From: Lysobacteraceae bacterium NML07-0707 | Lineage (GTDB): Bacteria > Pseudomonadota > Gammaproteobacteria > Xanthomonadales > Xanthomonadaceae | Assembly: GCA_002798295.1 (NCBI GenBank) | Contig: NWQT01000010.1 | Location: 1 to 55,762 of the forward strand | Direction: 5' to 3' | Length of the DNA stretch: 55,762 bases | Part shown: positions 5,249-41,597 of the stretch, piece after piece | How positions within the stretch are numbered: position 1 is the first letter of the stretch | How the letters are laid out: the number at the start of each line of letters is the position of its first letter | The notes under the pieces: model-generated | What the model was told of the DNA's origin: nothing | The model's database searches: none | Seen by the model: only the letters and a program-made list of their open reading frames with translations | Position numbers and translations under genes: made by a program

Positions 5249-5252
5249 CGGC

Positions 5253-7079: not shown

Positions 7080-7191
7080 GCGGCACACTCTTCAAGTTAA
7101 GACTGGCGCATTGTAATGATTTCCCATTGCCTGCCCGATGCTGCCTGGCGTGATTTGGGGCAGGCTAGCACGTGGCCTGCCTTTCCCGGAA

Positions 7192-9543: not shown

Positions 9544-9580
9544 GAAATTCAAGGCATGGGGAAGGGGGGGCAAATTATAA

Positions 9581-9599
9581 TTCAATGAGAATCATTATG
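9581..9599. promoter_or_regulatory. Fur box
   Basis: The 19 bases match the Fur consensus GATAATGATAATCATTATC at 14 positions, with the core AATGAGAATCATTAT. It lies upstream of the TonB receptor start at 9543 and is also about 95 bp upstream of the sigma-54 promoter of the divergent efflux operon. Confidence 0.75.
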
Positions 9600-9616
9600 A
9601 TTATTAAAACCCTTCT

Positions 9617-9630
9617 GTCCGCGGACGTCC
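9617..9630. promoter_or_regulatory. Candidate upstream activator site for the sigma-54 promoter
   Basis: Two overlapping perfect palindromes, GTCCGCGGAC (9617-9626) and GGACGTCC (9623-9630), sit about 90-100 bp upstream of the predicted sigma-54 start site, the distance usual for NtrC-family enhancer sites. Binding by the regulator at 20645-21976 is inferred. Confidence 0.45.
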
Positions 9631-9690
9631 GCCAGCCCCTACCGAACACAAGAAAATAAAAATAATTCAATAAAAACAATCATTTATAAT

Positions 9691-9706
9691 TGGCACGGGT
9701 TTTGCT
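9691..9706 (+). promoter_or_regulatory. Sigma-54 (RpoN) promoter of the efflux operon
   Basis: TGGCACGGGTTTTGCT fits the -24/-12 consensus TGGCACG-N4-TTGCW exactly, with GG at 9692-9693 and GC at 9704-9705 separated by ten bases. Transcription should start near 9717, just before the adaptor gene. This promoter type needs an ATP-driven activator, and an NtrC-type gene lies downstream in the same locus. Confidence 0.85.
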
Positions 9707-9738
9707 GAAAACAGCCTATCTTTCGCATGCAAAGCCCC

Positions 9739-11013: not shown

Positions 11014-11018
11014 AAGCC

Positions 11019-11099
11019 GGGACTCGGGACTCGGGACTCGGGACTCGGGACTCGGGACTCGGGACTCGGGACTCGGGACTCGGGACTCGGGACTCGGGA
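11019..11099. repeat. GGGACTC heptanucleotide tandem repeat, 11 copies
   Basis: Eleven perfect copies of GGGACTC run from 11019 to 11095, followed by a partial GGGA. It lies between the adaptor stop and the ATPase gene. Heptamers of this kind are known between genes of Xanthomonadaceae. Copy number probably varies between strains. Confidence 0.95.
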
Positions 11100-11241
11100 A
11101 AAGCATCGACAGTGCCATCTGCCTAATCAATGCTTTTTCCTTTCTTTTGACCCAAATCCCGGCTTTTAGCGCACTTCCATAACCCCTGGCCTCTGGCCTT
11201 TACCCCCTGCTCTTTAACCCTTTACCTCTGGAGTCAATGCC

Positions 11242-11916
<675 letters not shown>

Positions 11917-11924
11917 GGTGTCCC

Positions 11925-13217: not shown

Positions 13218-13224
13218 GGCTCTC

Positions 13225-14460: not shown

Positions 14461-14473
14461 AGGAAGCCAAGCC

Positions 14474-15796
14474 ATGTTCACCTATTCCCTGAAACTTGCC
14501 CTGCAAAGCCTGCGTCACCATCGCAGCCTGACGCTACTGATGGTCATCACCATTGCCATTGGCATTGCAGCCTGCATGACCACGCTAACGGTGTATCGCC
14601 TGCTGGCAGCCGACCCGCTGCCGCACAAGAGTTCGCGCATTTTTTATCCGCAACTGGACACGAACGCCGCTTCCGGCGGCCCGCCGCGCACCCCGGCGGA
14701 TATGCTCGATTACCGCAGCGCCATGGATTTATGGGGAGCAAAACGTGCAGCGCGGCAGGCCATCGTCAACACCAGCGAAGTCAAGCTACAGGCCGAAGGT
14801 AGCCGCCCGCTGATGCAATCCATGCTGGCGACCACGGCCGATTTCTTTGCGATGTTCGAGGTGCCCATGCGGTATGGTCAGGCCTGGAGTGCGCAGGATG
14901 ATGAGCATCGCAGCCGTGTGGCAGTGATTTCTGCCGCACTCAACCGGCAACTGTTTGGCGGAGAAAACAGCGTCGGCCGCCAATTGTTGGTGCGTGGGCA
15001 GGCAGTGCGCATCATTGGCGTACTGGATGAGTGGCGACCTTCGCCGCGCTTTTACAACATCGCGGGCGGCAATTTTGCCGAAGGCCAAACTGCTGCGTTC
15101 TACGACAAGCCCGAAGGGTTGTTCATGCCTTTCTCGACCGCGCTGGAAGTGAACGATGGTTATTTCCGGCAGTTCACCTGTTTCGATGGCATGCCGCAAA
15201 AACCGGGGCGATTGACCGATACCACCTGTGTCTGGCTGCAATTGTGGGTGGAAGCTGACAACCCGGCACAGGCCGATGCCTATCGCCAGTTTCTTGCCCA
15301 TTACGCTGCCGAGCAGCAGCGTGCCGGGCGTATCGGCCAGGCCGACAACACCCGCATGCTCAACCTCCGGCAGTGGCTGGATTTCAACCAGGCCATACCC
15401 CGCGATGTCAGCCTGCAATTGTGGTTGTCGCTGGGCTTTTTGCTGCTGTGCCTGGTCAATACCATTGGTCTGCTGCTGGCCAAGTTCAGCCGTCGTCGTG
15501 GCGAGTTCGGTGTGCGTCGCGCCCTGGGCGCAAGCCGTCGCTACATCCTTCAGCAATGCCTGTTGGAGTCCGGCGTGATTGGCTGCATCGGCGGCATATT
15601 GGGCTTTGCGCTGGTGTTGGTCGGGCTATGGCGCATTCGCCAGCAAGCCAGCGCCTATGCCGACCTGGTGTATCTGGATTGGCCGATGTTCGCACTGCTG
15701 TTTGCACTCGCCATCACGGTCAGCGTACTGGCCGGCTTGATTCCGGCGCTTCGCGCCAGTCAGGTCGCGCCTTCCATCCAGCTCAAGGTGCAATGA
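14474..15796 (+). CDS. ABC transporter permease A2 (MacB_PCD/FtsX)
   Basis: The 440-residue permease is the paralogue of A1. Both begin with a short basic N-terminus and a helix ending in the pattern MTTLTVYR or MTTLTVFR. The periplasmic domain shares ADFFAMFEVPMRYGQAWSA with ADFFPMFNVPLRYGQPWQA in A1. The FtsX loop is GEFGVRRALGASRRYILQQ. An AGGA ribosome site lies upstream of the ATG at 14474, 13 bases after permease B1. It continues the same operon. Confidence 0.9.
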   Translation: MFTYSLKLALQSLRHHRSLTLLMVITIAIGIAACMTTLTVYRLLAADPLPHKSSRIFYPQLDTNAASGGPPRTPADMLDYRSAMDLWGAKRAARQAIVNTSEVKLQAEGSRPLMQSMLATTADFFAMFEVPMRYGQAWSAQDDEHRSRVAVISAALNRQLFGGENSVGRQLLVRGQAVRIIGVLDEWRPSPRFYNIAGGNFAEGQTAAFYDKPEGLFMPFSTALEVNDGYFRQFTCFDGMPQKPGRLTDTTCVWLQLWVEADNPAQADAYRQFLAHYAAEQQRAGRIGQADNTRMLNLRQWLDFNQAIPRDVSLQLWLSLGFLLLCLVNTIGLLLAKFSRRRGEFGVRRALGASRRYILQQCLLESGVIGCIGGILGFALVLVGLWRIRQQASAYADLVYLDWPMFALLFALAITVSVLAGLIPALRASQVAPSIQLKVQ

Positions 15797-15797
15797 C

Positions 15798-17015
15798 ATG
15801 AAAAACTTTGCTCCCATTCTCGCCACGCTGCGCCGCAGCCCGTTTGCCGCCAGCGTGATTGCCCTGCAGATTGCACTGGCCTGTGCAGTCCTGGTCAATG
15901 CACTGGATTTGATTGCCCAGCGCTATACCGCATTGACGGTGGACAGTGGCGTACATGAAGCTGCCATTGGCAGTATTCACTTGACCGGCTTCGAGCCGGA
16001 GCAGGCCGAAGACGTCAATCATCGCATCATCACCGCCTTGCAACAGCACGCCGGCGTACAGGCGGCCGGTGTCATCGGCAGCCTGCCGTTCGGACAGCGC
16101 GCAGGCACCGTGGGGCTTAGTCTTGATGCCGAAGGAACGCATCACATCGGCATTGTCGATTTGTATGTCGGAAGCCCCGGCAGTTTTGATGCCCTGGGTT
16201 TGCGCCTGGTCAGTGGCCGTCTGCCGCAAGCCGATGAATACGCCGCGATTGAACAAGCTCTGCCCAAGCAGCCGGTGGCGCTTCTGACCCGCAGCCTGGC
16301 CGAACACATCTGGCCCGGCGAAAGCGCACTCGGCAAGCAATTGGGCAGGCCGCCGTTTCGCATGACCGTGATTGGCGTGGTCGAAGATGTCAGCGTCCCC
16401 ATGCCCGGCAGCCTTGGCGCGCAGCGGCTGTATTGGTCGATTTTTGTTCCGGCCGCGCACGGGGCACAACTGACCGGCAATTACGTGTTCCGCGCCGACC
16501 CCGCGGCCATGCCTGCCATCCAGCAAGCATTGCCCGATGTGCTGGCGAAGGCCGTCCCCGAAGCGGTACTGACCCCGGAACTCAGCCAGCCCTTGTCTGC
16601 ACTGCGACAAGCGTATTTCGCCAACGACCGCAACATGCTGGGCCTGTTGCTCGGCATCATCGCGGTAATGCTCGGCATCACCGCCTTCGGCATCGTCGGC
16701 TTGGCCAGCTTCTGGGTGCAGCAGCGCACCCGGCAAATCGGCATCCGCCGCGCGCTTGGCGCCACCCGGGGCGACATCCTGCGCTATTTCCAGAGCGAGA
16801 ACTTTCTCATCGTTACCGGTGGCATCGTGCTCGGCCTGCTGCTGGCCTTCGGCCTCAACCAGTTCCTGATGGCCAAATACGAACTGCCGCGCCTGCCCTG
16901 GCAAACCCTGCCGATCGCCGCCGTGGTGCTGTGGCTGCTCGGCCAGCTCGCCGTGCTTGCCCCCGCACTACGCGCCGCCGCTATCCCTCCGGCCACTGCG
17001 ACACGGAGTGTGTGA
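15798..17015 (+). CDS. ABC transporter permease B2 (MacB_PCD/FtsX)
   Basis: The 405-residue permease is the paralogue of B1 and closes the efflux operon. It starts one base after A2 ends, so translation is probably coupled. The N-terminal helix is near residues 18-35, the periplasmic domain runs to about residue 285, and the C-terminal 112 residues are identical to those of B1. The operon therefore encodes two A-type and two B-type permeases for one ATPase, which would allow two different heterodimers. The transported substrate cannot be read from the sequence. Confidence 0.9.
   Translation: MKNFAPILATLRRSPFAASVIALQIALACAVLVNALDLIAQRYTALTVDSGVHEAAIGSIHLTGFEPEQAEDVNHRIITALQQHAGVQAAGVIGSLPFGQRAGTVGLSLDAEGTHHIGIVDLYVGSPGSFDALGLRLVSGRLPQADEYAAIEQALPKQPVALLTRSLAEHIWPGESALGKQLGRPPFRMTVIGVVEDVSVPMPGSLGAQRLYWSIFVPAAHGAQLTGNYVFRADPAAMPAIQQALPDVLAKAVPEAVLTPELSQPLSALRQAYFANDRNMLGLLLGIIAVMLGITAFGIVGLASFWVQQRTRQIGIRRALGATRGDILRYFQSENFLIVTGGIVLGLLLAFGLNQFLMAKYELPRLPWQTLPIAAVVLWLLGQLAVLAPALRAAAIPPATATRSV
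16678..17013 (+). repeat. 336-bp perfect direct repeat, copy 2
   Basis: Second copy of the 14123-14458 repeat, in the end of permease B2. The two copies lie 2555 bp apart in direct orientation, so recombination between them would delete permease A2 and fuse the two B genes. Confidence 0.95.
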
Positions 17016-27054: not shown

Positions 27055-27179
27055 CAGATACTCCGCAAGTAAGGATGTCTGGCTGGCTGGGCCCAAAAGC
27101 GTGGCTGGCTGACAAATCGGCGCGATTTTACGCCGCCTTCACATTCATCACAATACGGCAACGAATCTTCGCTGCCGTG

Positions 27180-29921
27180 TCAGTTTTTTGCCTCAAAGCG
27201 CAAAAAATCAGCCAGCCGCTTCGACTCCAGCACCTCGTCGTGCGGCGCCAGCACATAGCGCCAGGGCTTTCCGCCCACGCTGAGGCTGTAGTCGCTGGCA
27301 TGCTGGCACCACTGCACGGCGGCCTGCGCCTTGGCCTGCACTTCGGCGCTGGCAATGTCGCCGCGCGCCTTGGTTTCCACCATCAGGATGCAGTCCTGCA
27401 TTTCGGCCACGAAGTCGGGCACATATTCGGGCTGCTCGCTGCCGAACTTGTAGTAGATCTGGAACTGCCCCTTGGCGGGCTTGAACCACTTGAGCGCATC
27501 GCGCTCCAGGAGGATGGCAAAGCGCCGCTCGGTGTCCGAGTCGAATTTCTGCAAGGGATACAGGCAGCGCGCAAAGCCGCCAAATAGCAAAGACTTGATG
27601 CGGCCGGGCTCAGCCAGCGTCTGGCGGTAGTGGCGCGGCGCTTGTTCCGCCGCCATGTAACTACAGGGCTTGAGCTGGGTGAAGCCGCGGCTGATACGCA
27701 CCTCGAAACCCGCGGCCTCCTCATAGAAATGCGCTTGCATCTGCGCATGGATTTCGCGCGCAATCAGGCGGCGGTCACGATCGAGCACATTGATGACGTC
27801 GGCCTCGTCCGCCAGATAGCTGCGCAAGTGCCGCACCATTTGCCCCGCCAGGTCGTACAGCAGCTCGGACTGGGTGAAGTAGTCGATGTCGTCAAAGTCC
27901 AGCAGCGCGTGGACGATATAGTCCTCGGCGCGCTGCTCCTTCAGGCCAATCTCTGCCGCCAGGCTGAACTGTGCATTGCTGTGCAGCATCTGCCCCACGA
28001 TCTCGCGCGTGCCCGGCTGCAAATGCAGCCCGCTCACATCCAGCGCGAAGGGGCGATAGCCCGTTGTCACCTCGCCCTTGGGCACCACAGTGATGCGTGG
28101 AATATCGATGCTTTGCTGCACCACGGTTTCCACCGTCTTGGCGACCACGGCAGACAGGTCCAGCGCAGGCACGGCCACATCCGCGTCGGCCGGCAAGCCG
28201 CTCAACAGGCTACCCTGCATGGGGCGCAGCCGTTCGGCCACCTCGGCGGCGATGGCCTGCTGCACCTCGGGTCGCAGCAGCGCGCTGCGGGTAGGGGCGA
28301 CATCGCGCCGGGTTTCGTACTGGCCGATGACGTCCAACACCGCGCGCGCAGCCTGTTTTTCCGCCTCGCTGCTGAAAACAGGCGCAGGCATGGCCAGCCC
28401 TGCTGCGTTGCCCGCGTCCGCCGTGGCAAGGGCGGCAGGCTCCGTCAGCCCCAGACGCGCATGCACGCCCGCGCCGACCTGCACGCTCACCTTTTTCTCA
28501 TCCGCCTGCGGCGCTTCCAGAATGACTTGCTTCAGGCGAATGGGCGAATCGCCCCGGTTGGCCTCGTCCACGATTTCCTGAAACCGCTCGTGGGCGACGA
28601 TGTTGAGCCGATCCACCGCTGCCACGCCGGTGCGCTTGCCATAGGGCAGGCGCAGGCCGCGCCCGATGCTTTGCTCAATCAGCGTGCGCGCGTTGGCGGC
28701 GCGCAGCGGCACGATGGTGTAGAGGTTGGTCACGTCCCAGCCTTCTTTGAGCATATTGACGTGAATCACAATCTCGGTCGGCTCATCCACGCTCTCCACG
28801 GCCAAGAGGCGCGCAATCATCTGCTCCTCGTCCTTGCCGCTCTTGCTGGAATCGACCTGAATCACCTTGCCCGCATAGCGCCCCTCGCAAAATGCGGGCG
28901 ACTCCAGCAAGACCCGCAAGTCGGCGGCATGCGTGGTGTCGCGCGCAATCACCAGCATGAAGGGCTTGACCGGCTGCACCCCGTTCTCGCGCGCATAGGT
29001 CAGCAGCTCCACCTTGGTGGCCTCGTGCAGGCGCACGCCGTCTTCGAGCTTGATTTTTTCCAGCTCCTGCGGCGTGTGCGCGCTGGCATCGAAGCCGCGC
29101 TGCGTCACCACGGCCGGTTCTTTGACGAAACCATCTTCCAGCGCCCGCGCCAGCGGGTAATCCATCACCACGTTCTTGAACGCCACCGGCTCGCGGCTGC
29201 TCTCCACAAACGGCGTGGCCGTCAGCTCCAGGCCGAACAGCGGCTGCAACTCATTGATCGCCCGCATCCCCGCCTGGGCGCGGTAGCGGTGCGACTCGTC
29301 CATCAGCAGCACCAGATCCGGCAGGTTCGCCAGGTGGTTGAAATAGCTCTCGCCCAGCACCTCGCGCATGCGCTTGATGCGCGGCTCCTTGCCGCCGCGC
29401 ACCTCGGAATTGATCTTGCTGATATTGAAGATGTTGATGCGCACGTCCTGTGCGAAACCCTGCGGCTGCACCTCCACCGCCGCGCCGCTTTGCTCGTAGT
29501 TGTCGCCGGTGATGATGAGGGGCGGCTGCTGCGCAAACTCGGCAATACCCTTGAACACGTACTTGGGCGTGTTGGGCGTGAAATCGGCAATCAGCTTGTT
29601 GTAAATGGTCAGGTTGGGCGCCAGCACAAAAAAATTGCGGATGCCATGCGCCAGATGCAGATAGGCGATAAACGCCCCCATCAGCCGCGTCTTGCCCACC
29701 CCGGTGGCCAGCGCAAAGCACAGCGAGGGAAAGTCGCGCTCAAAGTCCTCCAGCGTCGCAAACTGCGCCTTCAGGCTGCTCAAGATGGCTGCCACATCGC
29801 GTTCATGCGTCAGCACTTCCGGCGCGGCCTCAATGGCCTGAATCAGCTTTGCCAGTGATTCCGCCTGCGGCGCGCGTAGCGACAGCCGGCCGCTGACATG
29901 GTGTTGTACGCGGGTGTTCAA
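27180..29921 (-). CDS. res: Type III restriction enzyme, Res subunit
   Basis: The 913-residue protein is the ATP-dependent restriction subunit that, with Mod, cuts unmodified DNA. The helicase part has Walker A ATGVGKTRLM near residue 72, the DEAD-like box as LLMDESHRY near residue 207, LTATPF near residue 235 and the C-terminal helicase motif QSIGRGLRLPYGKRTG near residue 440. The nuclease is at the C-terminus, with PEYVPDFVAEMQD and MVETKARGD near residue 860 forming the PD-(D/E)XK site. The start appears to be TTG at 29921, overlapping the stop of the RhuM gene. It is the last gene of a five-gene overlapping operon. Confidence 0.9.
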   Translation of the reverse strand: MNTRVQHHVSGRLSLRAPQAESLAKLIQAIEAAPEVLTHERDVAAILSSLKAQFATLEDFERDFPSLCFALATGVGKTRLMGAFIAYLHLAHGIRNFFVLAPNLTIYNKLIADFTPNTPKYVFKGIAEFAQQPPLIITGDNYEQSGAAVEVQPQGFAQDVRINIFNISKINSEVRGGKEPRIKRMREVLGESYFNHLANLPDLVLLMDESHRYRAQAGMRAINELQPLFGLELTATPFVESSREPVAFKNVVMDYPLARALEDGFVKEPAVVTQRGFDASAHTPQELEKIKLEDGVRLHEATKVELLTYARENGVQPVKPFMLVIARDTTHAADLRVLLESPAFCEGRYAGKVIQVDSSKSGKDEEQMIARLLAVESVDEPTEIVIHVNMLKEGWDVTNLYTIVPLRAANARTLIEQSIGRGLRLPYGKRTGVAAVDRLNIVAHERFQEIVDEANRGDSPIRLKQVILEAPQADEKKVSVQVGAGVHARLGLTEPAALATADAGNAAGLAMPAPVFSSEAEKQAARAVLDVIGQYETRRDVAPTRSALLRPEVQQAIAAEVAERLRPMQGSLLSGLPADADVAVPALDLSAVVAKTVETVVQQSIDIPRITVVPKGEVTTGYRPFALDVSGLHLQPGTREIVGQMLHSNAQFSLAAEIGLKEQRAEDYIVHALLDFDDIDYFTQSELLYDLAGQMVRHLRSYLADEADVINVLDRDRRLIAREIHAQMQAHFYEEAAGFEVRISRGFTQLKPCSYMAAEQAPRHYRQTLAEPGRIKSLLFGGFARCLYPLQKFDSDTERRFAILLERDALKWFKPAKGQFQIYYKFGSEQPEYVPDFVAEMQDCILMVETKARGDIASAEVQAKAQAAVQWCQHASDYSLSVGGKPWRYVLAPHDEVLESKRLADFLRFEAKN

Positions 29922-31042
29922 GTCTGTTCCCCTATTTTCTTCTTTGGCAGTGCCTTCCGGCTTTTCTGCAACTGCTTGACCGGTTGCGCAAGGGCGGCCT
30001 CAAAGTCTTTTTCCACTGGCGATGGCAAATTGCGCACACGCGCCCGGTATTGGGCATAAGCCGCTTCCGCCTTGGCAAGCGCAGTCTTGGCCGACACCTT
30101 GCCAGCATGGGGCAGGATGTCTTTTCGTGTCATGCGCAAGAAGTTGTCCAGCTCCTGCGCCCAATCGCGCATCGTCATCGGTTGGTGCGCCTGGGCTTGC
30201 AGCTCCGCCACCTCGATATAGGCCGTGACGATGCGGTTGAGCGTGTCCAGCTCTTCGGCATTGAGGTAGTTCTTGGCAATGCCGACATCCGCCTTGCGCA
30301 CGGGCGCCCCTTTGCTGGCCCCCGGCCAATTCGTCAGCCCCACGTGGGGCGCTTGCGCGTCTACCCGCGCCACGATCAGCTCTGCGGCGGTATGGCCATG
30401 TGCTGCCCAGTGCATCTTGTTCTGCACCGTGGCAAAAAACTGCCGTGCGATTTCCGTGTGCGGGTCGTAATCGATGCTGGTGGCGTAGATGTCCAGCACC
30501 TTGCGCCAGAACACTTTTTCCGACGAGCGAATATCGCGGATGCGCGCCAGCAGCTCTTCGAAATACTCCGCATCCTCGCCCCGCTTGAAGCGATCGTCAT
30601 CCAGTAGTACACCCTTGCGCAGATAGGTCTTGAGCTGCTCCGTCGCCCAGCGGCGGAATTGTGTACCCCGATGCGACTTGGCCCGGTAGCCCACCGCCAG
30701 CACCACCTCCAGACTGTAATGCTTGAGGCTGCGGTTGACCTGCCGCCCACGCTCCAGCCGAACCTGTAAGTACGGCTTACAAGTTGCTGCTTCCTGTAGT
30801 TCCCCGGTTTGGTAGATGGCGCGGATGTGCTGGGTAATGTTTTGTGGCGAGCACTGGTACAGCTCGGCCAGCTGCGCCTGGGTCAGCCAGAGGCCGCCAT
30901 CCTGAAGGCGCACCTGTACCCGCGTCTGCGCATCCTCGGTCTGGTAGAGCAGAAATTCGCCTGTTTCTTCCATAGCTGCAGCAGCTTGCTGCACCAAGCC
31001 GCCTGCCTTTGCAGGTGTGTTGCCTGGAGCTTGCTTTGCCAT
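29918..31042 (-). CDS. RhuM-family protein within the type III system
   Basis: The 374-residue product matches the RhuM family: GEFLLYQTEDAQTRVQVRL, then LWLTQAQLAELYQCSPQNITQHIR (a helix-turn-helix-like segment near residue 53), then YSLEVVLAVGYRAKSHRGTQFRRWATEQL near residue 108. The C-terminal half has the family's IVTAYIEVAELQA and LDNFLRMTRKDIL helices. RhuM was first named in a Salmonella pathogenicity island, and its activity is unknown; relatives often sit in or next to restriction loci. The start overlaps the Mod stop by one base and its end overlaps Res by three bases. Confidence 0.85.
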   Translation of the reverse strand: MAKQAPGNTPAKAGGLVQQAAAAMEETGEFLLYQTEDAQTRVQVRLQDGGLWLTQAQLAELYQCSPQNITQHIRAIYQTGELQEAATCKPYLQVRLERGRQVNRSLKHYSLEVVLAVGYRAKSHRGTQFRRWATEQLKTYLRKGVLLDDDRFKRGEDAEYFEELLARIRDIRSSEKVFWRKVLDIYATSIDYDPHTEIARQFFATVQNKMHWAAHGHTAAELIVARVDAQAPHVGLTNWPGASKGAPVRKADVGIAKNYLNAEELDTLNRIVTAYIEVAELQAQAHQPMTMRDWAQELDNFLRMTRKDILPHAGKVSAKTALAKAEAAYAQYRARVRNLPSPVEKDFEAALAQPVKQLQKSRKALPKKKIGEQT

Positions 31043-32760
31043 TAGGCCTGCTCCTCATCATCACCAAACAGATCCGGCGTGTCGGCGGCTTTTCTCCCTT
31101 TGCCTTTGGGAGAGGGCTGGGCTAGCGGCTGCGGCTTGGCCAACGGCAAATTCGCCACGTTCAGGCTGTAATCGTCCTGCCCCCACTCGCAACGCGCCAA
31201 AATCATCTTGGGGATTTTCTTCAGCGTCAGATTCGGCCAGCGCTCAAGCGCCTGCTGCGCCGTCACCCCACGAAAGGCCGAGCAGCAAATCAGCAAACTG
31301 CGGCCATCGCCCACCTCATCGGCCAGCGCCTGTAACTGCCCGGCAGACAAGCTTTGCGTGGTCACGAAAATAAAATCCTGTTCACTGGAATGCCCATGCT
31401 GCCACCACAGCGTTTCCGACGGCGCATAGGTAAAACCCTCCAGCTTTGCCAGCGCCTCGGCCAGCATCGCCGCGTTGTATTCCGGGTTGATGATCGGGTT
31501 GCCCCAGCGGTCATTCACAATCAGGCTCGGCGCCAGCCGGTAATAGCGAAACCCGCCGCCCCCCTTCCAGTTCACCGCCTTGGAAATCCCGCCCGGGTCT
31601 TCGCCATCAATGACTTTTTTCAGGCGCGGAATGATGTGCGTATGGCAATGCTCGCCCAGTTCTACCATGATCCAGCGGCGGCCCATTTTGTGCGCCACAG
31701 CGCCCGTGGTGCCGGAACCGGCGAAGGAGTCGAGCACCAGATCGCCGGGGTTGGTGGCCAAATTTAAAACCCGCTCAATCAACCTTTCTGGTTTTGGCGT
31801 TGAAAATATTTCATCGGAATTAAATTTTGCAACTTCACGTTTGGCGTCCTGATTATCTCCAACTTCTGATCGAAGCCAAACCGTCATTGCAACTATCCCG
31901 TCTTGCACCTCAGAAAGAAAGCGCTTAATCCGAGGGACATTATTTCCCTTTTCACCAAACCAAATCCTGTTGTCAGAACGAAGCTCCTCGAAACGCCTTG
32001 GTGAAGCAGCCCAGCAACGCCCTTTCGTTGGAAGCAACTTTCGTCCACTTGGAGTGGTTATTTCATAGATATTTTCGCTAAACCCTGTTTTTGCATACTG
32101 TGCGCCTCGCTGCCCACCGGTCAAGCTAATAGTAAAGTCACCAGAAGTCCAAACCCCACGCGGATCGTTGTCTGGATTTGAATATCTTGAGTCAGACTCC
32201 TCTGTTCTCGGAAGAAGTCGTGGGCGCCACGTTGATTTGCTCTTTGCATAAATTAGAACATGATCATGGCTATCAGATAGCCACTCACTATTCGCTTGAG
32301 GGGAGAATTTTTTTTGCCATACGGCATTCGCAACAAAGTTCGTTCTCCCAAAAACTTCATCGCACAACACCTTCAAATAATGCGCCTCGTTGTCATCAAT
32401 CGTGATCCACAACGAACCATCATCGGAAAGCAAACGCCTGATAATCTCCAGCCGGTCACGCATCAGCCCCAGCCAAATCGAATGCTCCAGTCCGTCGTCG
32501 TAATGCGTGAACGCACTGCCCGTGTTGTACGGCGGGTCGATAAACACGCATTTGACCTTGCCCGCAAACTCCGCCTCCAGCGCCTTCAAAGCCAGCAGGT
32601 TGTCCCCGAAAATCAGCCGGTTATCAAAAACATCCCCCTCCGACACCCGCCGCCCAGCGTGATACGACCGCCCCCCATCCTCCAGCAAAATCCGCGCCTC
32701 CAGCTTCGGCCGTTTGTCCTTGCCAATCCAGGTGAGTTCGAGTTTTTGCTTGCCAGTCAT
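31042..32760 (-). CDS. mod: Type III DNA adenine methyltransferase, Mod subunit
   Basis: The 572-residue protein adds methyl groups to adenine and supplies sequence recognition to the Res complex. It has the beta-class motif order: DPPYNTG near residues 75-81, the variable target-recognition region at about 135-335, then the AdoMet-binding DSFAGSGTTGAV near 344-355. The C-terminal part is family-specific. The target-recognition region is markedly AT-rich (21 GC of 60 at 31801-31860, against 41 of 60 at 31681-31740), suggesting a domain exchange. The ATG overlaps the HerA stop by four bases. Confidence 0.92.
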   Translation of the reverse strand: MTGKQKLELTWIGKDKRPKLEARILLEDGGRSYHAGRRVSEGDVFDNRLIFGDNLLALKALEAEFAGKVKCVFIDPPYNTGSAFTHYDDGLEHSIWLGLMRDRLEIIRRLLSDDGSLWITIDDNEAHYLKVLCDEVFGRTNFVANAVWQKKFSPQANSEWLSDSHDHVLIYAKSKSTWRPRLLPRTEESDSRYSNPDNDPRGVWTSGDFTISLTGGQRGAQYAKTGFSENIYEITTPSGRKLLPTKGRCWAASPRRFEELRSDNRIWFGEKGNNVPRIKRFLSEVQDGIVAMTVWLRSEVGDNQDAKREVAKFNSDEIFSTPKPERLIERVLNLATNPGDLVLDSFAGSGTTGAVAHKMGRRWIMVELGEHCHTHIIPRLKKVIDGEDPGGISKAVNWKGGGGFRYYRLAPSLIVNDRWGNPIINPEYNAAMLAEALAKLEGFTYAPSETLWWQHGHSSEQDFIFVTTQSLSAGQLQALADEVGDGRSLLICCSAFRGVTAQQALERWPNLTLKKIPKMILARCEWGQDDYSLNVANLPLAKPQPLAQPSPKGKGRKAADTPDLFGDDEEQA

Positions 32761-34850
32761 GCTTGTGCTTCCGAATCTTCTTGGCTATCTGCGTTGAGCC
32801 TTATTTGCTGCCAGTCGTCCGCGATGACTTTCCAATTCACACAGCGCTCGTTTTCACCCGACCAGACTGCCCAGAAATCTGGGTCGTCCGATTTCGGGCG
32901 ATGTTCTTCGGGCAGGGCTTTCATTTGCACAAGTACCGGCAGTTCTGACGCCCAGCCAAGCAGGATGGCATGTCGAGAAGGCAAAGAGGGCAAATCACGC
33001 AACAAGCCGCGCAGGTTGTCAGGCACCAACTTATGCACAAGTTCCTGATCCCGGTCATTGCTGATGCGGTGCAGCAAATAGCTATTGCATTGCGACAGTA
33101 CGGTGGGTGACAACTCGCTGGGACGCTGCGAGGACAGAACCAAACCCAGCCCGAACTTGCGGCCTTCACGGGCGATTTTTTCAAATACCTGACAGCATAT
33201 GGCGGCTGAATTCTGATTTTCAGCATCGTCGTGGTAGCGCTTGATGAAGGTGTGCGCTTCTTCCATCACCAGCACAGTGGGCAGGGTTCTGCCCTCCTTT
33301 AATTTGCGATAACGCTGGAGCGCTTCCAAAGTCATGCGGGCAATAACGGCGGTGATGATGTGTACCACCTCGGCAGGCACCAGCGAAAGATCAATCACAG
33401 TCACCGAACCATTGGATGCCTGGTCGTCGCCGATATGGTTGCGCAGCCACTCATCCAACGTCAGGTCTTGGGCAGTGCCCGAGATCATTTTCATGCGGCT
33501 GTCTGATAACAGCGTTCGGATGCGCATCTGCATTGTTTCAACGTACTCTGAAACTCCAAGGAGTTCAGCGTTGGCTTCAACACTGCGGAGAAGTTGCTCA
33601 CCGGTAAACGGACGCGGCACATCAGCATCAATAGGCAGGATATCAGTGTCGCTACCGCCGAACACCGAATGTGCTTTGCTCAGTGCAGCAATCAGCGTGT
33701 TGATTTCTTGAGGGGTGAAAATGATTGGCCAATCACCCGTGTGGGCAGTTAAGAGAGTTGTGATTTTTTGGATCAACTCACTAAGCGCCGTACTTTCCGT
33801 CTGGCTGAAGCTGGCGCTATCCCCCAAGCCTTCTTTCCACTTGATCAATCGATCTCGGAAACCCTTTGCAGGCCCAGAGCCTTTCCAAGGGTTTCCTGAG
33901 TTTTTTTCAACTTGAGTCGCCGATACGAGCGTGCGCAGATAGCGACGCATCTCATGGCTCGGTGTGACCGTGGTATTGAAGACTCCATCACGTACCGACC
34001 GCAGCGCCTGTACCAAGGTTGGGCGCTGAGTTTTGGCACTGGCTTGAGTGAATGCACTCCACTCTGCACTGTTCCAAAGCCACAAGGGCACTTGCAGCTG
34101 CTCGATGTTCTCTTTCTCACGAGGCTCAACAGCAAATACCCGCACATGGCTCATATCGCAGAAGGTGCTGGCGTATTCGCCGTTGGGATCGAGCACGATG
34201 AAGCGGGCATTGGGGGCTGCACCGTCACGGGCTTTGCGTGCCTCATCCATCGACCAGCGGATCAAGCCTGCGACCGAACAGGATTTGCCGCTGCCGGTGT
34301 TGCCCAGCACCGCCAGATGGCGACCAAAGAGGCGATCCGGGTCGATTCTGACCTCGGCATTGGCAGCCAGCGGGCTACTGCCAATCAACACATGCCGGTG
34401 ATCGCCAGACTCGACGATGGCGCGTAGCTGGTTTTGCGTGGGCAACAACACCGCATCGCCCACAGTGGGATAACTTTCGACGCCGCGCCGGAAACGATAG
34501 ATGTCACTACCCTCGGCGTCCTTGTCGCAAGCCAGCACTCCCAATGGATTGAGGCTCATCTTGCGCAAGGGATAAGGCAAATCCACCAGACCAAAATCCT
34601 GCATGCCCTTGCGCTTGGGGTATTGCGAGCGCTCGATGGTGATCCATTCGACCTGTGCAACCAAATGCCCGTTGTCACCGGGAATCAGTACATAGCCATT
34701 GATGCGTGGAAAAGGGCGTGGCGTACCGGTATTGAGCGCGACACCGTCGGGTGCCTCAATGTCGAGCAGTACCTTGATTTCATCGGGTGAGACAAAGTCG
34801 ATGGTACCAATGCGGAATGAATCGGCGTAGGCTAAAGGTGAAAGGCTCAT
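32757..34850 (-). CDS. herA: HerA-type helicase/translocase ATPase
   Basis: The 697-residue protein has the HerA/FtsK-like plan: an N-terminal beta-barrel-like region (about residues 10-140), Walker A LGNTGSGKSCSV near residue 192, and Walker B LPTVLVMEEAHTFIKRYH near residue 528. Near residue 560 FGLGLVLSSQRPSEL is the sensor segment and SNDRDQELV follows. HerA ATPases form hexamers and in the SIR2-HerA system assemble with the SIR2 NADase. It overlaps the SIR2 stop and the Mod start by four bases each. Confidence 0.9.
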   Translation of the reverse strand: MSLSPLAYADSFRIGTIDFVSPDEIKVLLDIEAPDGVALNTGTPRPFPRINGYVLIPGDNGHLVAQVEWITIERSQYPKRKGMQDFGLVDLPYPLRKMSLNPLGVLACDKDAEGSDIYRFRRGVESYPTVGDAVLLPTQNQLRAIVESGDHRHVLIGSSPLAANAEVRIDPDRLFGRHLAVLGNTGSGKSCSVAGLIRWSMDEARKARDGAAPNARFIVLDPNGEYASTFCDMSHVRVFAVEPREKENIEQLQVPLWLWNSAEWSAFTQASAKTQRPTLVQALRSVRDGVFNTTVTPSHEMRRYLRTLVSATQVEKNSGNPWKGSGPAKGFRDRLIKWKEGLGDSASFSQTESTALSELIQKITTLLTAHTGDWPIIFTPQEINTLIAALSKAHSVFGGSDTDILPIDADVPRPFTGEQLLRSVEANAELLGVSEYVETMQMRIRTLLSDSRMKMISGTAQDLTLDEWLRNHIGDDQASNGSVTVIDLSLVPAEVVHIITAVIARMTLEALQRYRKLKEGRTLPTVLVMEEAHTFIKRYHDDAENQNSAAICCQVFEKIAREGRKFGLGLVLSSQRPSELSPTVLSQCNSYLLHRISNDRDQELVHKLVPDNLRGLLRDLPSLPSRHAILLGWASELPVLVQMKALPEEHRPKSDDPDFWAVWSGENERCVNWKVIADDWQQIRLNADSQEDSEAQA

Positions 34851-36235
34851 ATCAAATCGTCCACGTCAGGGGAACTTACTGCGGAGTTCTTGGCGTGTTG
34901 TTGGAGTTCTGCGCCCATGCGTTGCTTGAGCAGCTCGCTCATGCGGAAGGTGGTTTTATCGATCGCCGGCTTGGGCAGGTAATGCTCAGTCAGGGTCGTC
35001 AGGTCTGCCAGGGCAGGACCAATCAACAGACTGATTTGTGAGTCGCGCCCCAATTCCTTGTAAGTCTGCATGATGCGGTCTAGCGGATCGTTATATGAGA
35101 TCACGACTAGGTGAGTTGAAGGAATGGTGAGCATGTCACGGATGACGCGGTTAATGTGCTCGTCGCCAAAACTGTAGCCGTAGGTCACCAACGTACTGTT
35201 CGGGCGACATACGGCAGCCGCCAAATCGCGGAACAGCTCCACATAGGGATAAGCGGCGGTTTCCCTGTCCTTGGCAGCATTGGGATAGATCATCAACTCG
35301 TGCGCAGTCACTTGGCTCAAGCCCGGCGCTTGCAGATAAGGATCGATCTCGGTAGCTCCAAATGGCAGACCAATGCGGCGAATGTCTTTACCTGCCTGCA
35401 CCCAGTCCAATGAACCGTGCAGTTTGGTGTAGCGCGCTACACCTTCCAGATAGCGCGGTTCGCCTCGGATTCCGGGCGGGTTGTAGTGCATGTCCAAATC
35501 CAATCGCGATGACCGGAAGATGGGCATCAGCTTGCCTACGAAGCGGTCCAGAAGGTGCAGCCCGGCCAATTCCGCCCCAGCTTCAATCAAACGGTCATAG
35601 TTGGTGGTGAAGATGCTCAGCCGATCACGTACTCCCGTGCGACTGGCAAAGCTCATCAGGAAAGTGACAAGGGTGTTGAAGGCTTGCTCACATTTGCCAT
35701 CTTTGGCAGTGGCAATGCCTTTTTCACTTTCTAGGATTGAGTGAGCGAAGTTCTTTATCCCAGCTTGAAGCTCATTGCGCAGAGTCTGTGCGTCTTTCCC
35801 CTTTTTGAGAATCTCCAAGCCGCGCAGCAGTTCATTGGCGATACGAAGTTGGTCTTCCAGATTGCCAGCTTCACGTCCAGCGGCTTCGGCGGATTTCTTG
35901 GCTGCTTGATTAATTTTTTCTTTATGGGGGCAATCGGTTAGTGGTAATTCATACATCCCAGCGGCACTTCTTTCAGTGGCTATGAAATGCACCGCATGCG
36001 TCAGTCCAGCCCCAACTAATAGCGAAAGATGCTCGGACTGGAAAAGTGATGTCAGCCAGGGCTCGATTCGGCGACGAAGATCATTGATTCCGAAATCTTC
36101 CCCTGCCCATGATGTCTTGGAATCCTCAGAAATCTTGAATTTATCTTCTTCCAAATTTCCAAACCGTATTGGCTGGTGATCGTCACGCACCTTCAGGATG
36201 TTGGGGTAGATTTCCTTGGTATTGGCAGTATTCAT
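34847..36235 (-). CDS. SIR2-domain protein, partner of HerA
   Basis: The 462-residue protein carries an N-terminal SIR2 fold: LLVGAGLT near residue 76, IFTTNYDRLIEAG near residue 207, YTKLHGSLDW near residue 270 with the catalytic-type histidine, and TYGYSFGDEHINRVI near residue 355. In known SIR2-HerA defence systems the SIR2 subunit depletes NAD+ after phage infection. I chose the ATG at 36235 because GGGAG lies five bases upstream; 36247 is in frame but has no site. It begins the five-gene operon. Its base composition is lower in GC than the housekeeping flanks. Confidence 0.9.
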   Translation of the reverse strand: MNTANTKEIYPNILKVRDDHQPIRFGNLEEDKFKISEDSKTSWAGEDFGINDLRRRIEPWLTSLFQSEHLSLLVGAGLTHAVHFIATERSAAGMYELPLTDCPHKEKINQAAKKSAEAAGREAGNLEDQLRIANELLRGLEILKKGKDAQTLRNELQAGIKNFAHSILESEKGIATAKDGKCEQAFNTLVTFLMSFASRTGVRDRLSIFTTNYDRLIEAGAELAGLHLLDRFVGKLMPIFRSSRLDLDMHYNPPGIRGEPRYLEGVARYTKLHGSLDWVQAGKDIRRIGLPFGATEIDPYLQAPGLSQVTAHELMIYPNAAKDRETAAYPYVELFRDLAAAVCRPNSTLVTYGYSFGDEHINRVIRDMLTIPSTHLVVISYNDPLDRIMQTYKELGRDSQISLLIGPALADLTTLTEHYLPKPAIDKTTFRMSELLKQRMGAELQQHAKNSAVSSPDVDDLI

Positions 36236-36403
36236 TTCATCTCCCATTCAATCAAAAACAATTCCTCTTCCTCCACCCGCTGCAGCAACGACCCTTCCAG
36301 CCCTTCAATCAGTCAACTGCGCTGGGCTTCCAGTTGGCGTTGCTGTTTTTGCCAGTGCAGTTCTTCTTGCAAAGGGATGCGATGGCTGGAAGGGGCAGCG
36401 GTG
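36232..36403 (-). pseudogene. Broken reading frame in front of the SIR2 gene
   Basis: Read leftward, the frame gives LQEELHWQKQQRQLEAQRS, then a TGA stop (36313-36315), then LIEGLEGSLLQRVEEEELFL and a stop at 36232-36234 that overlaps the SIR2 start by four bases (ATGA). The helical, glutamate-rich text and the coupling-type overlap suggest the end of a lost upstream gene of the same operon. The family is not recognised. The glmU stop lies immediately upstream, so the missing part was probably removed when the island joined this site. Confidence 0.45.
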
Positions 36404-38369: not shown

Positions 38370-39660
38370 TCAGATGGTTGATAGATCGACTCCGTAGTTG
38401 AGTTCCTCTGCGAAGTCCGGCAGTCCGTAACCGATGGTTTTCTTGTAGAAAGGAGAGACCTTCGCAGTCGGTGCCTTCTTCTTGTGCTTCGTGGTGTAGA
38501 GCATTCGTGCCCGCATCACCTCGAAGGAGTAACCGCGCCCTTCACGGTTCTTGTCCTTGGCCAGTCGGTTGATGGACTCCGTGTAAGCGTTGGTGACGGG
38601 CATGTCCGTCTCGAAGTAGGTCATGGTCTCTTCGCGCCAGTTTCCCACTGCCCTGACCAGATCGCTCCAGACTTCCTTTTGGCCCTTCGGGATGGTGGCT
38701 ATCCACTCGTCCAGGGCGGCTTCTGCCTGGAGCCGTGTGGTGGCGTCCCAGATGCCGTAGAAGCGCTCCTTGTGCTCGTAGGCGGCCAGCAGTTGCGGGA
38801 ACGCGCCTGTCCAGGTCTCCATGATGAGGCGCTCCCGGTCTGAGACTTCGTGAGCGCGTTTCAGCAGGATTTTCCGGTCTCCCTTGAGAGTCCGGCTCTG
38901 GGACGGTTTCAGCTCCTTTCTGAGGCCCTTGCGCACTCTCTCTAGGGCATCGTTGGCCATGCGCACCACATGGAACTTATCGACCACGATACGGGCCTGG
39001 GGCAGCACAGCCTTGACCGCTGCCCGGTAGGGGGTTCCACATGTCCATGCTGACGATCTCGACCTTCTGCCGGTCTTTCAGCTTCATCAGGTAGTTGGTC
39101 ACCACGTCCTGGCGGCGGGTGGCCAGCAGGTCGAGCAGGGTTCGCTCCTCAATGTTGGTCAGAATGCAGCGGTAGCGCTTGTTCAGGTATAGCTCGTCAA
39201 TGCCCAGGATGCGGGGCGTCTCGAAGCGGTGCCAGCGCCCCAGGAACTCGGCGCGGGCGTTGAAGATGTCGCGCACCGTCTTCTCGTCCAGGCCGGTCTG
39301 TGCCGCCACAAAGGTGTAGGGGTGGTTGAAGGATTCCTTCTCCACGTACTCATGCAGCCGCAGTGTCATACGGAATCCGTCCACCATCTCCGGTAGCTGG
39401 GGCCTGAATGTTGTCTTGCAGGCCCGGCAGGTGTATCGGCGGCGGACCACCCAGAGAGTGACCCGTTTGCCGTGGATGGGCAGATCACGATAGGGAACGT
39501 CACGCTTGCCGAACCGTACGAACTCACCCTGCACGCCGCATTCCTCGCAGGCGATGGGATCGGGCACGTCCACCTGGAAGTGCATTTCGTCGTCGGTTGA
39601 TTTGCAGCCCAGTACTTGGTATTGCGGCAGGTGAAGGATGTTGTCGGGAAGTTCGGTCAT
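38370..39660 (-). pseudogene. tnpA: ISL3-family transposase, frameshifted
   Basis: The N-terminal part (39660 down to about 39030) shows the zinc-finger-like CEECGVQGEF and CRACKTTF, then DEKTVRDIFNAR and LGIDELYLNKRYRC, an ISL3 DDE feature. The C-terminal part (39008 down to 38370) continues VVDKFHVVRMANDALERVRK and has MPVTNAYTESINRLAK with the last acidic residue. Between them a run of five Gs on the plus strand (39030-39034) holds one base too many; with four, the frame reads MDMWNPYRAAVKAVLPQARI and joins the two parts into about 430 residues. A sequencing error in this homopolymer is possible. As written the enzyme is inactive. Confidence 0.92.
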
Positions 39661-39681: not shown

Positions 39682-40194
39682 TCAGTCAGATCCATCCGAC
39701 TCGGCATTGGTGTTTGCTTTTTTACCCAACAAGCTGCTGGAAACGAAAAGTAAGGCACCGAGGACAATTGCAATATCAGCCAGGTTGAAGGCCGGCCAAT
39801 GCCAGTCTCGCCAATAGAAATCAAAGGAATCCACAACATAGCCGCGAAAGACCCGGTCAATCAGGTTACCCATGGCGCCACCGAGGATAAGACTGTAAGC
39901 GATGGCTTCTCCTTTATGACGATTTTCAAGGATCAGCTTGATCAGAAAAATCGAGACCACTACCGTGATTCCGATAAAAAAGTAGCGCTGCCAGCCTCCA
40001 CCATTCGCAAAAAGACTGAATGCGGCACCGGTGTTCCATAGGTGCACCCAGTTAAAGAACGGGGTCACCGAAACATACTCGCCATAGGCCATTGATTGCT
40101 GCACCAGCCACTTTACAGCCTGATCAGACGCTGCCAGCAGGCCCGATATGGACAATAGGGCATACGGCGAGAGCTTTTTGCCAATAATGAGCAT
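39682..40194 (-). CDS. lspA: Lipoprotein signal peptidase LspA carried by the IS element
   Basis: The 170-residue protein is a type II signal peptidase that cuts prolipoproteins after lipid attachment. Four membrane segments are visible, and the two catalytic aspartates lie in GGAMGNLIDRVFRGYVVDSF and FNLADIAIV. It is cargo of the insertion sequence, three bases downstream of the CDF gene. A chromosomal copy would be expected elsewhere. What a second signal peptidase does for the element is unknown. Confidence 0.93.
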   Translation of the reverse strand: MLIIGKKLSPYALLSISGLLAASDQAVKWLVQQSMAYGEYVSVTPFFNWVHLWNTGAAFSLFANGGGWQRYFFIGITVVVSIFLIKLILENRHKGEAIAYSLILGGAMGNLIDRVFRGYVVDSFDFYWRDWHWPAFNLADIAIVLGALLFVSSSLLGKKANTNAESDGSD

Positions 40195-40197
40195 TAT

Positions 40198-41094
40198 TTA
40201 ACCCTTCAACGCCAAAATGCGTCTGGCACCGTTAAGTACAATGCCCCCCGCGATGGTGCCGATAATCAGATCCGGATAATTGGAACCGGTCCACGCGACC
40301 AGGGCGCCGGCGGTGATGACCCCCAGGTTGATCACCACGTCGTTGGCCGAGAATATCCAGCTTGCCTTCATGTGCGCCCCGCCTTCCCGATGTTTGGATA
40401 TGAGCAGCAGACAACTGGTATTGGCAATCAATGCGACGAATGCGATAGCCATCATCACCAGCGATTCAGGCTCACTACCGAATACAAAGCGTCTCACCAC
40501 CTCTACGAGCACGCCCACAGCCAAGATCAGTTGCAGTACACCAGCAAGATGCGCGGCACGTACCTGCATTTTCACGCTATGTCCAACCGCATAAAGGGCA
40601 AGCCCGTACACCGCCGCATCGGCAAAATTGTCCAGGGATTCTCCAATCAGGCCGGTGGACCGGGCGATCAGACCGGCAGTCATTTCCACCACGAACAGAA
40701 GTGCATTGATGCCGAGCAACCAGCGCAGGGTCCCGGATTCTTGCTTAGCAGAAGCTGCCGAAAACTCGGCGGCCTTGATGGTCTCCGGATTTGCAGCGAC
40801 GGTTTCCTGAAGCGAGGCGCCTAGCCCCAAGGTCTTCAGTTTCGAGGTGACGGGCTCGACCTCGCCGTCATGCACGACCTTCAGCCGGCGGTTCGACAAG
40901 TCGAAGGACAGCGCCCGAATCTCCTCAAAGCCGTTCAGGGCTAGGCGAATCATTCGTTCTTCTGATGGACAGTCCATCTTCGGCACGGCATAAACACTGA
41001 CCCATCTCCCTGGCGCCTCGGAGGAGGCCTGTATATCGGTATCCGCTGCGGACGTTGCATCACCGCCACAGGCGCCACCACAGGATTTGCTCAT
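40198..41094 (-). CDS. Cation diffusion facilitator (CDF) metal transporter with N-terminal metal-binding-type domain
   Basis: The 298-residue protein begins MSKSCGGACGG and has a short domain resembling a heavy-metal-associated fold (VPKMDCPSEERMIRLALNGFE, near residues 36-56). From residue about 125 it has the CDF core: six membrane helices with GLIGESLDNFADAAVYG and MKASWIFSANDVVINLGV, where metal-binding Asp and His/Asn positions lie. The start at 41094 follows from the MSKSCGG opening. It exports Zn, Cd, Co or Pb ions by proton antiport; the exact metal is not settled. It is divergent from the MerR gene. Confidence 0.9.
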   Translation of the reverse strand: MSKSCGGACGGDATSAADTDIQASSEAPGRWVSVYAVPKMDCPSEERMIRLALNGFEEIRALSFDLSNRRLKVVHDGEVEPVTSKLKTLGLGASLQETVAANPETIKAAEFSAASAKQESGTLRWLLGINALLFVVEMTAGLIARSTGLIGESLDNFADAAVYGLALYAVGHSVKMQVRAAHLAGVLQLILAVGVLVEVVRRFVFGSEPESLVMMAIAFVALIANTSCLLLISKHREGGAHMKASWIFSANDVVINLGVITAGALVAWTGSNYPDLIIGTIAGGIVLNGARRILALKG

Positions 41095-41133
41095 GATACG
41101 ACTCCACTTGAACAATGTTGTGGTACCATTTCA

Positions 41134-41158
41134 AACTATAAAGCTACTATAAGGTCAA
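41134..41158 (-). promoter_or_regulatory. MerR-family operator and promoter of the metal-transport genes
   Basis: Read leftward, TTGACC (41158-41153) is a -35 box, followed by the imperfect dyad ACCTTATAG-TAG-CTTTATAGT. This resembles the CadR/ZntR/PbrR operators, in which the dyad lies in an overlong spacer. It would drive the CDF gene in response to metal. Confidence 0.7.
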
Positions 41159-41189
41159 TAGAGTAAAGAATCCGTTGGGGAGGAGGCTG

Positions 41190-41597
41190 ATGCGCATTGG
41201 TCAGTTGGCGCAGTTGGTAGGGGTCGAAACACAGACGATCCGCTTCTATGAACAGCAGGGCTTGTTGCCGCCGCCTGATCGGCAGGACAACGGTTACCGT
41301 GTCTATACCGAGAAGCATGGTGAGGGGCTGGCCTTCATCCGTCGCTGCAGAATCCTGGGCCTGTCACTGGCTGAGATTCACGAACTACAGAGCTATCAGG
41401 ACGACCCTCATCAGCCTTGTACCGCCGTCAACACCTTGCTCGATGATCACATCTCTCATGTGCGGTCGCAGATAACCGCTCTGCAAGCGCTTGAGAAACA
41501 ACTCGTTTCACTGAGAGCGAGTTGCAACGATGACCGGGAAGTTGAGGCGTGTGGGGTTCTTGCTGGAATTAGCGAAGGAAACATGCACCAGCAGTAG
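41190..41597 (+). CDS. MerR-family metal-responsive regulator (CadR/PbrR-like)
   Basis: The 135-residue protein starts MRIGQLAQLVGVETQTIRFY, a MerR winged helix. The long dimerisation helix follows from about residue 75 (DDHISHVRSQITALQALEKQ). Cysteines lie near residue 77 (PCTAV), 112 (SCNDD) and 119 (EACGVL), the pattern of cadmium/lead sensors. It is divergent from the CDF gene and closes the insertion sequence on the right. Confidence 0.9.
   Translation: MRIGQLAQLVGVETQTIRFYEQQGLLPPPDRQDNGYRVYTEKHGEGLAFIRRCRILGLSLAEIHELQSYQDDPHQPCTAVNTLLDDHISHVRSQITALQALEKQLVSLRASCNDDREVEACGVLAGISEGNMHQQ

Follow-up and report, generated by a model that had tools for sequence, protein, structure and literature searches.

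Defence genes lodged between the genes of another defence system have been described under the name 'guilt-by-embedding' (Payne et al. 2024, known to us through the accessible parts of PMC12988326, PMC12255303 and PMC12629846), and the preprint of Payne et al. may well list SIR2-HerA. Here we describe an arrangement of this kind in Lysobacteraceae bacterium NML07-0707 (assembly GCA_002798295.1, contig NWQT01000010.1), where a leftward operon holds a SIR2-HerA pair and a RhuM-family protein together with the Mod and Res genes of a type III restriction-modification (R-M) system; by "the window" we mean the whole stretch analysed, 55,762 nucleotides (nt) of that contig. In the available sections of the published reports, DarTG2 is found within type I R-M (PMC12255303), PrrC within R-M (PMC12629846) and SIR2/HerA between or downstream of R/M systems (PMC11514479), and R-M systems with PrrC-like and RhuM-like genes are already in print (PMC3710099). 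Back-up effectors have been reported in bacteriophage exclusion (BREX) systems, in a paper whose main text, in its available form, does not contain the words 'sir2' or 'sirtuin' (PMC12839542). PDC families were themselves discovered by embedding, according to the available part of PMC12988326; the RhuM of the window matches PDC-S05, and its counterpart in a locus of Acidithiobacillus marinus (L029; L and G numbers are our handles for loci and genomes) matches PDC-S02.

That defence genes can be embedded in R-M and BREX is already published; a two-slot type III operon and the breadth of SIR2-HerA embedding are apparently new, no description of the two-slot family or of this SIR2-HerA host range having been found in the open-access literature that we searched. 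We hold, at a probability of roughly three in four, that the locus is a modular type III restriction backbone with exchangeable effectors in two slots and not a fixed five-part machine. The backbone would be an SNF2-type helicase, Mod and Res, with slot 1 (between helicase and Mod) holding SIR2-HerA and slot 2 (between Mod and Res) holding RhuM.

Five overlapping genes and a helicase remnant

An earlier note on this DNA had described five leftward genes that overlap at every junction, and the open reading frames (ORFs) and families agree with that description:

27180..29921, minus strand: Res, type III helicase-nuclease, 913 amino acids (aa), TTG start; ResIII, PADLOC REase_III 673 bits
29918..31042, minus strand: RhuM-family protein, 374 aa; Virulence_RhuM E 4e-107, PADLOC PDC-S05
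31042..32760, minus strand: Mod, type III methyltransferase, 572 aa; N6_N4_Mtase, PADLOC MTase_III 743 bits
32757..34850, minus strand: HerA-type ATPase, 697 aa; DUF87/HerA, PADLOC HerA
34847..36235, minus strand: predicted NADase of SIR2 type, 462 aa if begun at the ATG at 36235; SIR2_2, PADLOC SIR2

The minus-strand frames of all five genes are uninterrupted, and the overlaps are 4 bases at SIR2/HerA, 4 at HerA/Mod, 1 at Mod/RhuM and 4 at RhuM/Res; the range of 1-4 bases given earlier stands, and the RhuM/Res junction, previously placed at 3 bases, is corrected to 4. The SIR2 ORF extends over 34847-36247 (466 aa), and the in-frame ATG at 36235 is the preferable start. Motifs are intact in SIR2 (TTNYD at residue 214, LHGS at 276), HerA (the Walker motif GNTGSGKS at 183, EEAH at 530), Mod (DPPY at 75, FAGSGTT at 346) and Res (TGVGKT at 73, DESH at 208 and a C-terminal, PD-ExK-like PDF-x-ETK at 835), and we take the residues of these motifs to have their usual catalytic roles.

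Both members of the pair are related to the solved SIR2-HerA complex (PDB chain 8j4u_A for SIR2, E 1e-20; 8j4u_M for HerA, E 6e-32), and they score far below the NCBIfam equivalog cut-offs (SIR2_antiphage 125.6 of 500 bits, HerA_antiphage_2 222.7 of 850 bits); they therefore represent a divergent subfamily and not equivalogs. Res falls below the cut-off of NCBIfam BPTD_3080 (100.9 of 800 bits), its match to the PADLOC REase_III model PDLC03648 spans 819 residues, and it is distant from EcoP15I (E 6e-6 across 86 residues). For RhuM, AlphaFold2 modelling on 9 sequences reached a mean pLDDT (the per-residue confidence score) of 62, Foldseek gave no PDB match at E <= 0.001, and a profile search against PDB returned nothing under E 0.1. 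Scans for promoters and terminators gave results no better than shuffled sequence.

Between glmU and SIR2 lies a sixth element that the earlier note had overlooked:

36232..36402, minus strand: decayed C-terminal remnant of an SNF2-type helicase with an in-frame stop, recognised by matches to the helicases of relatives

It matches the helicase of L127 (E 2e-4), that of L037 (E 9e-6) and a helicase fragment of L158 (E 2e-6), and its TGA overlaps the SIR2 start codon as ATGA at 36232-36235. A search of the same genome for an intact close SNF2 helicase found none, the best match being 33% identical, and the helicase of the window operon is lost apart from this tail. In Acidithiobacillus marinus L029, too, a stop-broken helicase tail comes before SIR2 (17 residues, E 8e-4), and the gene order there, SIR2-HerA-Mod-PDC-S02-Res, repeats four of the five window genes in the same order with PDC-S02 replacing RhuM. 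Separately, SIR2-HerA of Nitrosomonas oligotropha (L081, 8554-12088) stands directly behind a gyrB-like gene (identified by eye), with a weak trace of a helicase tail ahead of SIR2 (E 0.018).

Exchange of cargo in the two slots

Matches to Res came from 22 of 398 genomes searched in the phylum (E <= 1e-40) and from 21 of 369 searched in the class (E <= 1e-60), its own genome being counted in both. The 40 Res regions examined come from every matching genome except G464 and G077; slot and system-type labels were assigned by hand, antisense ORFs that mask Res in L128 being taken into account. Slot 1 could be judged in 28 of these regions, the other 12 being too short or decayed (L128, L130, L133, L135, L139, L143, L146, L164, L174, L184, L193 and L200). 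The arrangement that recurs reads helicase - slot 1 - Mod - slot 2 - Res, with the upstream helicase gene visible in 19 of the 28 judged loci. Slot 1 carries a defence-type gene in 20 of them, is empty in 6 and is unassigned in 2:

Dsr2: L127
AIPR (AIPR/AbiU): L129, L131, L136, L137
Schlafen: L144, L145, L197
LmuB-like AAA_23 ATPase: L183, L187, L189
PDC-S06/AAA_13: L185
IetA-like ATPase plus subtilase (ietAS): L188, L194, L195, L199
HEC-01A: L191, L196
HipA-like PDC-M03A: L138
PDC-S13: L134
empty: L132, L140, L141, L142, L186, L198
unassigned: L190, L192

The Schlafen of L145 and L197 and the AIPR of L189 were called by local hidden Markov models (HMMs) alone, and the IetA of L195 by size and position only; in L132 and L186 the genes upstream of Mod, for isoleucyl-tRNA synthetase and a radical-SAM protein respectively, are housekeeping neighbours and were scored as an empty slot. 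Two plasmids extend the range, with an annotated Abi-family gene in slot 1 in Salmonella and a PLD-like protein in Roseomonas. One slot-1 position holds unrelated defence modules across relatives, as embedded cargo does, and on the Res tree its content changes at least 16 times (39 rows, 29 labelled; L134, L190 and L192 left unlabelled, L185 pooled with L183, L187 and L189, and the two plasmid loci, the window and L029 added). None of the 28 judged relatives has the window's SIR2-HerA family in slot 1, and the co-conservation of the pair with Mod-RhuM-Res, for which the earlier note proposed a test, is not seen among them. In L190 we also noted DruA-like, NurA-like and HerA-like genes at 6555-10731, oriented opposite to the Mod-Res of that locus.

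Other SIR2 proteins do occur there. In L127 the occupant is a Dsr2-like SIR2 protein of 1190 aa (5687-9259, 478 bits), which lies between the SNF2 helicase and Mod. In L158 (genome G262, 9578-16952) a different SIR2-HerA family, 29 and 31% identical to that of the window, stands in slot 1 with a KilA-N protein, flanked by helicase fragments and by a remnant in which Mod and Res have collapsed through deletion (Mod part 76%, Res part 55%); its HerA is broken by an ORF that resembles a transposase by eye. Three kinds of SIR2 protein have thus entered slot 1, namely that of the window and L029, the L158 family and the Dsr2 of L127.

Slot 2 varies as well, and apart from the following it contains small genes or none:

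RhuM: window, L128, L164
PDC-S02-like: L127, L130, L186, L191, L029
Fic: L132

The PDC-S02 label comes from PADLOC for the L029 protein and from a local HMM for the other members; the Pfam name for proteins like that of L029 is DUF1016. A second Mod is carried by L129. In two IMG/VR contigs (L209, 2241-6610; L210, 5037-9406) a RhuM 84-86% identical to that of the window lies between HsdS and HsdR of type I R-M, and therefore RhuM moves too.

SIR2-HerA in other hosts and the insertion beside glmU

Genome contigs were scanned for HerA, and the best 80 of 148 relatives, many of them on short contigs, were examined, taking six ORFs as the neighbourhood and calling DNA methyltransferases with local HMMs built from HerA loci. 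Of the 80 loci, 48 have a DNA methyltransferase on the same strand and none has one on the opposite strand; the same-strand count is 49 of 81 with the window included, and 30 of the 46 loci having at least 5 kb on both sides. Forty-six loci could be classified by host, as type I BREX (15), type III BREX (9), type I R-M (9) and type III R-M (13), the last class comprising several kinds and including the window. In six loci (L063, L070, L074, L079, L080 and L095, the last being, by length and gene order, on the same contig as L100) the order is HsdM-SIR2-HerA-HsdS, and 4-base overlaps occur at many junctions of the type I R-M loci with SIR2-HerA. In six type I BREX loci (L019 at 5132-13886, L021, L025, L031, L038 and L051) the pair is flanked by one ORF that matches the N-terminal half of PglX and another that matches its C-terminal half, recognised through PADLOC in L019 and a local HMM in the other five, and PglX appears to be split around the cargo position. 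A contig of the viral collection (L203, 123-11996) reads HsdM-SIR2-HerA-HsdS-Schlafen-HsdR, that is, two cargoes in one type I R-M operon.

HerA relatives were found in 213 plasmid records, chiefly from Citrobacter, Escherichia and Klebsiella, and four were inspected. Two (E. coli and Raoultella) have SIR2-HerA without an R-M neighbour, near copies of the insertion sequence (IS) IS26; a third has same-strand Mod-Res upstream of the pair and an IS within HerA; the fourth, from Vibrio, has type I R-M on the opposite strand. As a control, 13 regions of other HerA families were considered, and R-M genes or remnants lie near HerA in five (L147, L148, L149, L152 and L158); embedding is therefore not special to the HerA family of the window. 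The exact five-gene order was seen in none of the 80 HerA loci, the 40 Res regions (12 of them too short or decayed to judge), the six viral HerA loci or the four inspected plasmids, which bears out the impression that the combination is uncommon. The proposal that the NADase is controlled specifically by this Mod receives no support, because the hosts of SIR2-HerA also include BREX and type I R-M systems.

The operon forms part of a block whose limits can be read from congeneric genomes:

27172..36403, strand not applicable: inserted block between the glmU stop and a TonB-receptor gene (names by eye), missing at this place in G758 and G755

The DNA of G758 follows the window up to 27171 and again from 36404, with 2 bases in between, and that of G755 follows it up to 27167 and again from 36403, with 11 bases in between; compared with these two congeners, the block is an insertion. 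The window's Res and HerA subfamily was found in one of 17 congeneric genomes searched, which is the window's own, and G756 has only a distant HerA (35%). Among eight congeneric glmU regions compared, only that of G747 (L231) has DNA of the block. Downstream of glmU the helicase remnant is found again (90% and 79% nt identity), then a GmrSD protein of 570 aa (PF03235 and PF07510) and then a decayed, frameshifted 5' end of Mod (87% nt identity over 276 bases); a search of G747 for the window's Res gave no match. Homology to the window ends at 36243, eight bases ahead of the SIR2 ATG at 36235, and restarts at the Mod start. As GmrSD lies between the same helicase remnant and Mod, it and SIR2-HerA are alternative cargo at this place.

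Further along the window, two overlapping ORFs lie on the minus strand at 38370-39660, the upstream one matching ISL3-type transposase domains, so that the transposase looks split. A cation-efflux protein with a heavy-metal-associated domain is encoded at 39682-41597 between signal-peptidase-like and MerR-like genes (both by eye), apparently a metal-resistance insert adjoining ATP synthase genes (by eye).

Explanations and comparison with known systems

Under the modular reading, Mod would methylate and thereby protect host sites, and Res together with Mod would cleave unmodified incoming DNA. SIR2-HerA would be a self-contained, NAD+-hydrolysing abortive-infection pair that acts once restriction has failed, with its own HerA-SIR2 complex as the sensor of infection, and RhuM would be a further effector. 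Through embedding the passengers would be translationally coupled and would probably be transcribed together and transferred in one block, each passenger nonetheless being exchanged separately. The idea of restriction as a first line with suicide as back-up, put forward in the earlier note, fits the PrrC precedent as presented in the available part of PMC3710099. In favour of the modular reading stand the varied slots of the backbone, the changes of slot-1 cargo on the Res tree, the swap beside glmU, the empty sites in congeners, the pair without R-M on two plasmids, the RhuM of type I R-M loci and the range of hosts of SIR2-HerA. On a quick HerA tree the host labels (46 rows) change at least 17 times, and on a careful HerA tree of 24 of these rows they change 8 times; the type III R-M label alone is unclustered on the quick tree (11 changes against a shuffled mean of 11.5).

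Several observations weigh against this reading. SIR2 proteins have entered slot 1 repeatedly, so the pairing of an NADase with type III R-M may be favoured and not arbitrary. Neither HerA (approximately unbiased test, P = 0.136; on the quick HerA tree, P = 0.87) nor Res (P = 0.162) rejects a single origin of the pair in the backbone for the window and L029, and SIR2 rejects it weakly (P = 0.039). In 9 of the 28 judged loci no helicase was seen. Host types are more clustered on the quick HerA tree than in shuffles (17 changes against a mean of 24.9), so that movement is not free; this tree omits the broken HerA of L103, and its own clade test shows it to be an incomplete search, a careful subtree being used for the window and L029. 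G747 shares the glmU side only, and past its Mod remnant the DNA resembles window 7194-11039. The overlaps at all junctions, finally, allow strict co-expression and a physical complex.

A rival explanation is an obligate, dedicated five-gene system in which control of the NADase is specific to this Mod. Such a system would agree with the unbroken overlaps, with motifs that are intact in four of the five proteins (RhuM having no known motif to check) and with L029, where the pair again precedes Mod and Res. The survey results run the other way: no judged relative of the backbone has the pair, slot-1 cargo changes many times on the Res tree, the pair is also hosted by BREX and type I R-M systems, slot 2 may hold RhuM, PDC-S02, Fic or no gene, and in congener G747 the corresponding slot next to glmU is occupied by GmrSD. 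A dedicated joint system is therefore not supported, and we consider it very improbable; of the single integrated unit proposed earlier, what stands is a translationally coupled operon of restriction, a predicted NAD-depleting pair and RhuM. At the opposite extreme, the genes might share an operon by chance insertion, embedding bringing no functional gain. The 28 of 81 loci (window included) with no same-strand R-M or BREX gene detected within six ORFs would suit such a passive island. Some of these loci have short flanks, and in two (L059 and L073) there are ORFs that bear methyltransferase-like motifs but escaped the HMMs. This explanation is hardly credible given the strand bias of the methyltransferase neighbours, to which the Vibrio plasmid, outside the set of 80, is an exception, and given that homology between the window and G747 breaks near gene ends.

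A further alternative is that SIR2-HerA acts as a guard in the manner of PrrC, being held inactive by Mod-Res or sensing its state until inhibition of restriction by a phage, or a build-up of unmodified DNA, sets it free, the link being generic across R-M and BREX hosts. PrrC sits in a type Ic R-M operon and is under its control, according to the available part of PMC3710099. In the window an effector pair is likewise found inside an R-M operon, overlapping both Mod and the helicase tail, and the pair lies inside HsdM/HsdS in 6 and between the PglX halves in 6 of the 80 HerA loci, where many junctions in the type I R-M operons overlap by 4 bases. The AAA_13/PDC-S06 protein in slot 1 of L185 also suits a guard, AAA_13 being presumably the PrrC-type ATPase. 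Yet the pair is also found without R-M neighbours and in unrelated host types, and a SIR2/HerA pair of Streptococcus thermophilus, whether or not akin to the window's family, conferred resistance to phage once its two genes were cloned together (PMC11514479, available part). We regard a guard as unlikely, though worth keeping in view. More speculatively, R-M of types I and III and BREX might share a docking position for suicide modules beside the methyltransferase, with NADases recruited repeatedly and the methyltransferase complex or its inhibition as a generic trigger. We give this idea only a small chance; if true, it would mean a general coupling of DNA self-recognition to suicide by NAD+ depletion across type I R-M, type III R-M and BREX.

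With the modular reading, a one-off operon becomes a testable rule, a two-slot type III backbone whose back-up effector differs between relatives, and the differing cargo is seen beside one chromosomal gene, glmU, in two congeners. New effectors could be looked for at the cargo position, and loci that differ in the cargo of one slot could show whether the restriction machinery triggers embedded effectors or the effectors act alone.

Among described systems, the SIR2-HerA anti-phage system has the same adjoining, overlapping SIR2 and HerA genes with the same domains and motifs as the window, whose pair differs in forming its own subfamily inside a type III R-M operon. The backbone resembles type III R-M of the EcoP15I kind in that Mod and Res of type III families share one operon, here with RhuM between them, and differs in that its relatives often have an upstream SNF2-type helicase and two cargo slots. 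The helicase of the L127 backbone recalls DISARM, its best PADLOC match being DrmD (659 bits), whereas Mod and Res of the window match type III models; among the matches listed for the scanned proteins there is no DrmB, and DrmA appears only as a weaker helicase match, no systematic search for either having been made. With PrrC in type Ic R-M, as presented in the available part of PMC3710099, the window shares a suicide effector, here a predicted one, within an R-M operon as a putative second line; it differs in having a predicted NADase pair instead of an anticodon nuclease, and a type III host. As in other cases of guilt-by-embedding, defence modules lie between the genes of another system, and what distinguishes the window is the presence of two slots in one type III family, with other cargo beside the same gene in a congener.

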